Positions 19,956 to 62,524 of a DNA stretch of 64,000 bases are shown here, one piece after another. A program made the position numbers and the translations under genes. Positions within the stretch are counted from its first letter, which is position 1, and every line of letters starts with the position of its first letter. Location: positions 744,001 through 808,000 of the forward strand of contig NZ_CP025066.1 in the NCBI RefSeq assembly GCF_002952775.1. The letters run 5' to 3'. The notes under the pieces are model-generated. The model was not told the DNA's origin. It saw only the letters and a list, made by a program, of their open reading frames with translations, and did no database searches. Origin of the DNA: Halalkaliarchaeum desulfuricum (lineage in GTDB: Archaea > Halobacteriota > Halobacteria > Halobacteriales > Haloferacaceae).

Positions 19956-20029
19956 GGGCCGGTAGCTCAGTTAGGGAGAGCGACGGACTCTTAATCCGTC
20001 GGTCGGGGGTTCAAATCCCTCCCGGCCCG
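19956..20029 (+). tRNA. tRNA-Lys (CTT)
   Basis: A 74-nt cloverleaf. Acceptor GGGCCGG pairs with CCGGCCC (20022-20028), with discriminator G. The D-arm is GCTC...GAGC, the anticodon arm ACGGA-CTCTTAA-TCCGT gives anticodon CTT, and the T-arm is GGGGG-TTCAAAT-CCCTC. No intron and no encoded CCA. The last 20 nt are copied in inverted orientation 42 nt downstream. Confidence 0.97.
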
Positions 20030-20070
20030 TGCAACGAACCGCCGAGTGACAACGAGGCGGTGAGTGAACC

Positions 20071-20222
20071 GGCCGGGAGGGATTTGAACCAGACAGCGAG
20101 GAGTCCCGAGCGAAGCGAGGGAAGCTCGCTGGCGAGGTTCAAATCCCGGTCGACGTACTCCCAATAGACGTGCGCCGACCGACTTCCTGCTCGATTGAAT
20201 CGCGGGAATCCCTCCCGGCCCG
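20071..20222 (+). repeat. tRNA-Lys 3'-end derived inverted/direct repeat element
   Basis: Downstream of tRNA-Lys an exact 20-nt reverse complement of its 3' end lies at 20071-20090. A direct 12-nt copy (GGTTCAAATCCC) follows at 20136-20147 and a direct 16-nt copy of the very end at 20207-20222. The first two form arms of an inverted repeat extended by AGCGAG / CTCGCT, with CGAGCGAAGCGAGG in the loop (about 20107-20120). No gene is present. The same plan is seen behind the other three tRNA genes. Confidence 0.85.
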
Positions 20223-20561: not shown

Positions 20562-20635
20562 GCCGCCTTAGCTCAGACTGGGAGAGCACTCGACTGAAGA
20601 TCGAGCTGTCCCCGGTTCAAATCCGGGAGGCGGCA
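20562..20635 (+). tRNA. tRNA-Phe (GAA)
   Basis: A 74-nt cloverleaf. Acceptor GCCGCCT pairs with AGGCGGC (20628-20634), with discriminator A. The anticodon arm CTCGA-CTGAAGA-TCGAG gives anticodon GAA, and the T-arm is CCCGG-TTCAAAT-CCGGG. No intron and no encoded CCA. Partial copies of its 3' end follow within 160 nt. Confidence 0.97.
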
Positions 20636-20919
20636 TTTTCCTGCGAACAAGGTGAGGGAGCGAAGCGACCGAACCGTAAGCAGTGAAAATGTCGCTTCCC
20701 GAGCGGATTTGAACCCTGGAAGTCACAGCCCGGGAGCGCAGTGAAGCGAGCACCCCGGACTGTCTTCCCCCGGTTCACAATCCGGGAGGCGACATTATAC
20801 CCACAGTTCAACTGCCTGCGAGCGTCGCGTCTACGGAGCAGGTGTCAGTCGGCCTCCCTTCGACGTGACAAGGGGTCGACTCGAATATGTACTGTTTCCG
20901 CAGCCTGCTCTTTGCTTGT
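20636..20919 (+). other. Gene-free stretch with the tRNA-Phe relic
   Basis: About 280 bp without a credible gene. Apart from the tRNA-Phe derived inverted repeat (20690-20794), nothing recognisable is present. Confidence 0.6.
20690..20794 (+). repeat. tRNA-Phe 3'-end derived inverted repeat element
   Basis: A degenerate inverted copy of the tRNA-Phe 3' end lies at 20690-20719 (core GGATTTGAACC). A nearly complete direct copy follows at 20767-20794, differing from the tRNA by one inserted C and one G-to-A change. The two are arms of one long inverted repeat that extends into flanking sequence (AATGTCGC / GCGACATT), with GTGAAGCGAG in the loop. A further GGAGCGAAGCGA lies between the tRNA and the first arm. 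Confidence 0.85.
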
Positions 20920-39974: not shown

Positions 39975-40078
39975 GGGCACGTAGCTCAGCCAGGATAGAG
40001 CGTCGGACTTCTATCCCGTCCAGGTTTGTGGGTGGGGAAGACATCCGACGGTCGTGGGTTCGAATCCCACCGTGCCCG
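39975..40078 (+). tRNA. tRNA-Arg (TCT) with a 29-nt intron
   Basis: 104 nt in total, 75 nt after splicing. Acceptor GGGCACG pairs with CGTGCCC (40071-40077), with discriminator G. Anticodon stem TCGGA/TCCGA and loop CTTCTA(intron)A give anticodon TCT. The intron spans 40014-40042 at the canonical 37/38 position. A bulge-helix-bulge fits well: exon CTTC pairs with intron GAAG (40037-40040), with 3-nt bulges TA/T and AC/A holding the cut sites, and intron CCC (40015-40017) pairs with GGG (40034-40036). Confidence 0.93.
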
Positions 40079-40104: not shown

Positions 40105-40322
40105 GCGGGACTCGAGATTCGAAGCCTATCAGTCGCGCGCAGCGAACAACGTGAGCGAGTACGTCTGATTTCGGTTCGAATCCCACCGTGCCCGTAAAGC
40201 GAGGCGCGACCGGAGGGAGCGCCTCGAAGACGCGAACGGGGAGCCAAGCGACCCGTGAGCGAGCGATCGGCGAGCGCAAGCGAGCAGGACCGTCTCCACT
40301 CTGTTCGAATCCCACTGACCCG
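40105..40322 (+). repeat. tRNA-Arg 3'-end derived inverted/direct repeat element
   Basis: A degenerate inverted copy of the tRNA-Arg 3' end lies at 40105-40126 (core ATTCGAA). An exact 22-nt direct copy (same as 40057-40078) lies at 40173-40194. A second, decayed direct copy is at 40303-40322. The first two are arms of an inverted repeat extended by TATCAG / CTGAT, with GTGAGCGAG in the loop. GCGAGCGCAAGCGAGC occurs both before the first arm (40085) and before the third copy. About 300 bp hold no gene. Confidence 0.85.
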
Positions 40323-54704: not shown

Positions 54705-54767
54705 CACTGTACACCGCGTGGGTCATCGACTTGAATCTCACGGGTCTCGAATCCGAAGGCGTATCCA

Positions 54768-54843
54768 CGGACGTGGATGAACGCCCCGGACGTGGATGAA
54801 CGCCCCGGACGTGGATGAACGCCACGGACGTGGATGAACGAAG
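54768..54843 (+). repeat. Four tandem 19-bp repeats upstream of pyrB
   Basis: Unit CGGACGTGGATGAACGCCC occurs at 54768-54786, 54787-54805, 54806-54824 (last base A) and 54825-54843 (last three bases AAG). The array ends 3 bp before the ferredoxin stop (54846). It lies in the leader/promoter region of pyrBI. The unit length is not a multiple of three, so it is not coding. Confidence 0.9.
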
Positions 54844-59752: not shown

Positions 59753-59781
59753 TTTCCGCGCGAGCGAAGCGAGACGAGTGA

Positions 59782-59868
59782 ACTCGGCGGGATTTGAACC
59801 CGGAGGAAGACGGTCGCCTCGCTTCGCTCGGCGCTGCGTCTTCCAGGGCTTCAAATCCCGCTCGTCCA
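59782..59868 (-). repeat. tRNA-Ala 3'-end derived inverted repeat element
   Basis: Seen from the minus-strand tRNA-Ala, an inverted partial copy of its 3' end comes first (59846-59868) and a direct partial copy next (59782-59801, GGGATTTGAACCC core). The arms are extended by GGAAGACG / CGTCTTCC, and the loop holds CTCGCTTCGCTCG. A further GAGCGAAGCGAG lies at 59762-59773. Order and layout match the other three tRNA loci. Confidence 0.85.
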
Positions 59869-59901: not shown

Positions 59902-59973
59902 TGGACTCGCTGGGATTTGAACCCAGGGCCTCTTCCTTGCGAAGGAAGCGATCTACCGCTGATCTACGAGCCC
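59902..59973 (-). tRNA. tRNA-Ala (CGC)
   Basis: A 72-nt cloverleaf on the minus strand. Acceptor GGGCTCG pairs with CGAGTCC including the G3-U70 pair that marks tRNA-Ala, with discriminator A. Anticodon arm CTTCC-TTCGCAA-GGAAG gives CGC. T-arm CTGGG-TTCAAAT-CCCAG. No intron, no encoded CCA. Confidence 0.97.
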
Positions 59974-62448: not shown

Positions 62449-62524
62449 CTCACGGGAGTCGGCCGACGTCCCCGCTCACGGGGGTCGGCCGACATCCCCG
62501 CTCACGGGAGTCGGCCGACGTCAG
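62449..62524 (-). repeat. 26-bp tandem repeat, two full copies plus a 24-bp third copy over the hom 3' end
   Basis: Copies at 62449-62474, 62475-62500 and 62501-62524 share TCGGCCGAC with changes at two positions. The third copy contains the last codons and stop of hom (ADVGRLP, stop 62502-62504). The two further copies lie behind the stop codon, each carrying an out-of-context copy of the same ending. Confidence 0.88.

Follow-up and report, generated by a model that had tools for sequence, protein, structure and literature searches.

Hairpin units behind haloarchaeal tRNA genes as a candidate class-wide family of very short mobile DNA cassettes

Many tRNA genes across the class Halobacteria are followed by hairpin units flanked by copies of the tRNA's own 3' end, which, on balance, probably constitute a class-wide family of very short, non-coding and non-autonomous mobile DNA cassettes recognised as one folded strand. 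The general plan of these loci runs from the tRNA gene through a trailer hairpin, an inverted T-arm and a conserved imperfect hairpin to a direct copy of the tRNA's own 3' end. At about 67–86 nt, the cassette is an imperfect hairpin whose ends, GATTYGAA (inverted) and GTTCRAATC (direct), correspond to the T loop. It sits directly behind the tRNA gene, which is left intact, and the 3' end of the gene is duplicated from the T loop to nt 73. As far as open-access full text reaches, no published description of this family was found, in agreement with an earlier sequence-only reading of the locus that knew of no named element of this kind.

The window that we analysed is a 64,000-nt stretch of the Halalkaliarchaeum desulfuricum genome (hereafter G000), in which that reading had reported an inverted and two direct copies of the tRNA-Lys 3' end. 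All coordinates and the loop given for this locus were verified. The host gene tRNA-Lys(CTT) (19956–20029, + strand, as are all features of this array) is followed by a trailer hairpin (hpA, 20030–20070) that connects it to the cassette and lies outside the segment common to other tRNAs, and then by 20 nt that repeat the tRNA-Lys 3' end exactly in inverted orientation (20071–20090) and are separated by the loop CGAGCGAAGCGAGG from a direct 12-mer (20136–20147). The mobile hairpin cassette, in the order T'-core-T, spans 20080–20146, and a 16-nt exact direct copy of the tRNA-Lys 3' end (20207–20222) forms the right end of the array. The exact 20-nt inverted copy is exceptional in its length and ranks among the best preserved of the 47 units examined. 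The direct copy starting at 20136 has an acceptor resembling that of tRNA-Gly and not that of tRNA-Lys. The stretch 20136–20193 leads from the T-loop direct copy to a tRNA-Gly-derived acceptor and trailer and thereby forms a foreign cassette within the Lys array, and its top nine matches among 207 tRNA loci compared were all tRNA-Gly arrays. Judged from these alignments, the tRNA-Lys array is a mosaic holding a piece of a tRNA-Gly array, a feature that the sequence-only reading had missed along with the class-wide sequence conservation of the inner hairpin.

The same order was reproduced behind the three other tRNA genes to which it had been attributed in the window. At tRNA-Phe(GAA) (20562–20635, + strand), a trailer hairpin (20636–20689) precedes the inverted tRNA-Phe 3' end, or T' (20690–20715), the core hairpin of the cassette (20716–20771) and a direct copy of the tRNA-Phe 3' end with an additional C in the T loop (20772–20794). 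The intron-containing tRNA-Arg(TCT) gene (39975–40078, + strand) is followed by a cassette comprising T' and core hairpin (40114–40172), an exact 22-nt direct copy of its 3' end (40173–40194) and a degenerate second unit that terminates in a partial T-arm copy (40195–40315). On the opposite strand, tRNA-Ala(CGC) (59902–59973, − strand) is accompanied by T' (59849–59868), the core hairpin (59802–59848) and a diverged direct copy of the tRNA-Ala 3' end (59779–59801). The window also contains close direct repeats bearing no relation to tRNAs at 54765–54840 and 62449–62522 (19 and 22 bp exact, respectively).

The specificity of these copies was assessed by aligning the last 30 nt of each of the 44 tRNAs found with Rfam to the 400 nt downstream, a comparison against shuffled sequence that the sequence-only reading had proposed. 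At nearly all positive loci the own tRNA ranked first of 44 and its score exceeded that of every shuffle. A uniform test detected the own direct copy downstream of 21 of 45 tRNAs in G000 and upstream of none; the corresponding figures were 15/28 and 0/28 in the congener G001 (28 tRNAs sampled), 11/17 and 1/17 in a genome of the same family, and 8/32 and 1/32 in a halobacterial metagenome-assembled genome (MAG), a type of sequence that possibly carries assembly errors. Foreign tRNA ends passed the threshold in 2.6–6.2% of downstream tests. Absence of the plan from other tRNA genes had been named as a point against it: in the complete genomes checked, roughly every second tRNA gene does lack a unit, and the marked asymmetry in G000 (21/45 downstream, 0/45 upstream) speaks in its favour. 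The claim that each array is built from its own tRNA holds for the direct copies at nearly all positive loci. The inverted part usually consists of the T loop and a few T-stem bases followed by a decayed copy of the own acceptor; the stretch past the inverted T stem favours the own acceptor stem across 47 units (Wilcoxon P=4e-7), with clearly own copies in only 14 of them. Chance or generic T-arm similarity, the alternative raised at the outset, could draw on the likeness of T loops in all tRNAs and on the shortness of the inverted part in many units. We regard it as vanishingly improbable, given that own copies come first of 44 and above shuffles, that the upstream flanks are nearly empty and that the profile of the core is class-specific.

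This last property emerged from a sequence-only profile of the inner hairpin (R1), which was made from the copies of this genome and is therefore biased in its reach. R1 matched 30 sites in G000 at E<0.01, and all matches with E<1e-3 adjoin tRNA genes or island-end tRNA fragments; tRNA-Trp and tRNA-Pro(CGG), overlooked by the Rfam search, also adjoin R1 matches. Across the class, R1 matched 233 of the 242 Halobacteria genomes sampled and 69 of 74 genera; a sample of the phylum gave matches in 50 of 53 Halobacteria and in not one of the 242 genomes from other classes. At least 80 named records among the core-pattern matches listed were all from Halobacteria. When the top match per genome was inspected in 29 other genomes, 27 lay 29–167 bp behind a tRNA, with its own 3' end exact in most. 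Of 179 R1 matches at the loci retrieved, 145 follow a tRNA on its own strand and one on the opposite strand; for the remaining 33, the 800 bp upstream contain no tRNA, and many of these matches stem from a separate repeat context. In this context, found in Halorubrum, Halorussus and others (L148, L150, L154, L160, L161, L179 and further loci), the core GAAGTCGCAGCCCG..GGACCGTCTTC is repeated away from tRNAs within a larger repeat whose start lies near TTTATAA and GCGGTGGCGCGTGCC and whose end lies near GGGACTCAAAGGGGC or GGGGCTTTG. The tRNA plan held in few of 77 loci with such non-tRNA copies, which were accordingly set apart. At one further locus (L187; 5770, + strand), the core lies behind an apparent aspartyl-tRNA synthetase gene and is flanked on either side by direct but diverged copies of the 3' end of that gene, possibly reflecting the same process at a protein gene. 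Behind tRNA-Val(GAC) (L016, G000:C1:557.4 kb), TTTCAATCCCGTGCTGGGTTTTCTCCCTGCTGCGAC repeats with CRISPR-like spacing start ~130 bp past the tRNA.

Comparison of cores between loci and between congeners provided evidence for movement. The mobile part measures about 67–74 bp, from GGATTTGAACC to GGTTCAAATCC, and across this stretch the Lys, Trp and Pro copies are 89–98% alike, differing outside it. Alignment of the Lys, Trp and Pro(TGG) loci showed that they have in common exactly GGATTTGAACC..GGTTCA(C)AATCC and nothing beyond, the trailer and acceptor copies being local. The tRNA-Lys core is 98% identical to that of tRNA-Trp and 91% to that of tRNA-Pro(TGG), yet only 45% to that of the orthologous tRNA-Lys of G001, where another core is common to the Gly-GCC, Asp, Lys, Val and Arg loci (84–94%). 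Such turnover is not universal, since the Ala, Arg-TCT and Val-TAC cores are kept at the orthologous tRNAs of both genomes, with 91% identity for each of the Arg and Ala cores of the window. The comparison of related strains for presence and absence that had been suggested earlier yielded one pair: at tRNA-Phe, the site is empty in G001 (GGGAGGCGGCA followed by TCATACTCACGGTTCAA), and G000 carries a 159-bp unit with the tRNA copy at its end, followed by TTATACCCACAGTTCAA in a conserved flank. This empty/filled pair, the sole one aligned in detail, shows a clean 159-bp insertion. In addition, at tRNA-Gly(GCC) of G001 an extra unit separates the tRNA from one that is related to the G000 unit, and at tRNA-Asp the trailer hairpin is kept between the two genomes with the core replaced. 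Identical tandem arrays of three 125-bp units at tRNA-Thr and four 156-bp units at tRNA-Pro indicate recent amplification. One of the tandem arrays of G000 lies at C1:120349–120889. The small palindromic element capturing the tRNA end that had been envisaged comes close to this picture, in which a conserved hairpin between inverted and direct host copies has moved between tRNAs.

We then examined the fold on 15 length-matched cassettes, each taken from a different locus. Pairing cells amounted to 94%, and nine pairs have changes on both sides; the covariation score was 0.300, against 0.111 for shuffles, none of 500 reaching the observed value, and ≤0.077 for slid versions. The positions that stay unpaired are conserved as well, with T facing T, CAG facing AC, GA facing GA and a GNA loop at the tip. 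The pair closing this mini-loop is C-G in 70 of 71 cases (two pairs below the loop Watson-Crick), which matches d(GCGNAGC), an exceptionally stable DNA mini-hairpin; GCGAAGC is in use as such. A k-turn or a splicing bulge-helix-bulge does not fit the internal loops, as judged by eye. G.T does not outnumber A.C in the two inner helices (2 versus 3, with a conserved C.A position left out) and does so in the outer arms (27 versus 3). Stem covariation, the 145:1 strand bias and the GNA mini-loops argue for recognition of one folded strand, and the inner-helix counts together with the GNA mini-hairpin favour DNA rather than RNA. Hence, with moderate confidence, this strand is more likely recognised as DNA than as RNA, bearing in mind that some of the stem covariation could also arise through templated palindrome repair and that the outer-arm G.T excess could also be explained by RNA. 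A second unit type, in which the GNA hairpin is antisense and the direct copy begins at the 3' side of the T loop (about nt 60–61), was observed at tRNA-Gly, Arg and Cys loci (L005, L013, L042, L080, L091).

These structural data also bear on a functional RNA element, whereby the hairpin would serve as terminator, processing signal or tRNA-like decoy and the copies would be kept by selection. The occurrence of the hairpin on the sense strand only, the outer-arm G.T excess, the covariation and the T run with which trailer hairpins often begin would all suit such a role. It is nonetheless difficult to reconcile with the lack of a unit at about half of the tRNAs, the differing presence between congeners, the movement of cores between tRNAs and the lack of a G.U excess in the inner helices; moreover, a search of the window against Rfam 15 returned nothing above the gathering score except tRNA. 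We thus deem it quite unlikely.

Returning to a mobile cassette recognised as one folded strand, the junctions suggest how it might be joined. The tRNA-derived part of the direct copy begins at G53/T54 or a few bases later, and many direct copies, in various tRNAs and species, contain one extra T-loop base (GGTTCAC^AATC), as if the cassette end had been joined there. In the incomplete MAG QS_4_69_31 (L198, − strand), a T'-core hairpin at G53^T54 splits the sole tRNA-Asp found; this may be an assembly error, a pseudogene or an intron-like insertion. We propose that a trans-acting recombinase or copying enzyme would recognise one folded strand, namely the tRNA-sense strand, and join it at the universal T loop, upon which T and T' sites would trade cores. 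Were this enzyme a strand-specific recombinase active at the T loop, it would explain why the orientation is fixed, why the junction is precise, why units are added beside the tRNA and why cores are exchanged. A search for generic phage integrases gave 10 matches in the genome, none of them in the window, which counts against this proposal. A simple integrase reaction would not be the whole story because of the inverted copy of the own acceptor, which might be produced by outward copying from both T-loop ends or by palindrome repair. The earlier idea of copying primed or templated at the tRNA 3' end gained no support, the junction lying in the T loop (nt 53–60) and not at the CCA end; copying outward from the T loop would be possible.

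Slippage is a known consequence of palindromes and short direct repeats, and template switching might generate the arrays with no dedicated enzyme. A stalled nascent strand would fold back in the trailer hairpin, jump at GATTTGAA into the core of another array and return at GTTCAAATC to its own tRNA, whose 3' end would be recopied. This path accounts for the derivation of both inverted and direct flanks from the host tRNA, for exchange exactly at the T loop and for the Gly mosaic of the Lys array. Nevertheless, it requires three switches per event, and inverted T-loop ends would permit both orientations of the core, of which 145 of 146 cases show one; furthermore, the class-wide conserved unpaired positions (T.T, CAG/AC, GA/GA, GNA) imply recognition. 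Overall, this route appears rather unlikely.

Since tRNA genes are classic landing pads of mobile DNA, the units might alternatively be scars of tRNA-targeted integrative elements with tyrosine integrases (for example of the Halobacteria-restricted SNJ2, HSTV2 or pR1SE families), their att site containing this hairpin. The direct copy from T loop to nt 73 resembles the targets of archaeal tyrosine recombinases as set out in passages of PMC8371274, that is, the T stem-loop and the 3' end, and some of the haloarchaeal integrase families treated there are confined to Halobacteria. Two probable integrated islands with an integrase gene at one end occur in G000, at tRNA-Leu (~29 kb; G000:C1:2307.1–2336.3 kb) and tRNA-Cys (~82 kb; G000:C1:1643.9–1726.0 kb), and hairpin cassettes lie beyond the distal tRNA copy of each. 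They are displaced units beyond the far end of the islands, not att sites, which goes against the scar reading. Neither viral contigs nor phages searched yielded the core, and it was nearly absent from the plasmids searched, with few haloarchaeal megaplasmid matches. Inverted own copies and cores common to many tRNA types would also be unexpected, and we concur with the sequence-only reading that simple integrase scars, as left by plain site-specific insertion, give a direct copy only. All this renders scars very unlikely.

If the cassette interpretation is true, it would entail a new mode of DNA spread in which tRNA 3' ends are copied in both orientations behind about half of the tRNA genes, making haloarchaeal tRNA flanks a natural record of recombination. 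The family would then account for many apparent tRNA fragments otherwise labelled integrase scars.

Several known systems invite comparison. Tyrosine-integrase elements of the SNJ2, pT26-2 and SSV types likewise target the 3' part of tRNAs, with a direct copy restoring the tRNA, and a direct repeat of the tRNA 3' end does flank the insert here. The units differ from them in being gene-free (70–180 bp), in placing one core family on many tRNAs, in the inverted copy and in their absence from viruses, and the core was not identified as an att site on an integrase-bearing virus, plasmid or island. No such tRNA hairpin units are described in the passages of PMC8371274 on these recombinases and their Halobacteria-restricted families. 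PATE, MITE and SMR elements of Haloquadratum and REP/BIME sequences are also short non-coding palindromic repeats, with recognition of single-stranded DNA hairpins in the case of IS200/605-type transposases; however, these repeats are not known to sit at tRNAs. In Haloquadratum, PATEs and small mobile repeats leave their target unduplicated (PMC3119063), whereas each insertion here duplicates 20–23 nt of the tRNA, which sets the units apart from IS200/605-derived elements, with their subterminal palindromes and lack of target duplication. MITEs and transposons with target duplication have terminal inverted repeats and a short duplication at varied sites; the present units have inverted T-loop ends and the 20–23 nt duplication, but these ends come from the target itself and the insertions lie at tRNA genes. 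CRISPR arrays and casposons resemble the units in the addition beside a fixed leader or tRNA with duplication of the repeat. Unlike the constant repeats and unrelated spacers of CRISPR, the spacers here are related hairpins, the repeat is the tRNA 3' end, an inverted copy is present and some arrays are fully identical.

Archaeal integrons have been reported in a study whose main text mentions neither Halobacteria nor tRNA (PMC9668308). With respect to integrons, the outer boxes of the units, GATTYGAA(C) and GTTCRAATC, depart from the attC consensus, as the fourth position of the GTTRRRY box is C. This consensus comprises R''/R' boxes of the form RYYYAAC ... GTTRRRY. The cassettes here are gene-free (70–180 bp of hairpins) and integron cassettes usually gene-bearing, and the anchor is a tRNA gene whose own 3' end is copied both ways. 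Like attC sites and CALINs, in turn, the arrays are bounded by an imperfect palindrome that folds as a single-strand hairpin with conserved unpaired bases on a fixed strand, units are added at an anchored end with the junction beside G-TT, and exchange takes place between loci. We tentatively raise the possibility of a third single-strand hairpin recombination system beside integrons and IS200/605, in which a class-wide enzyme of Halobacteria would shuffle gene-free cassettes among all tRNA genes via docking at their universally conserved T loop.
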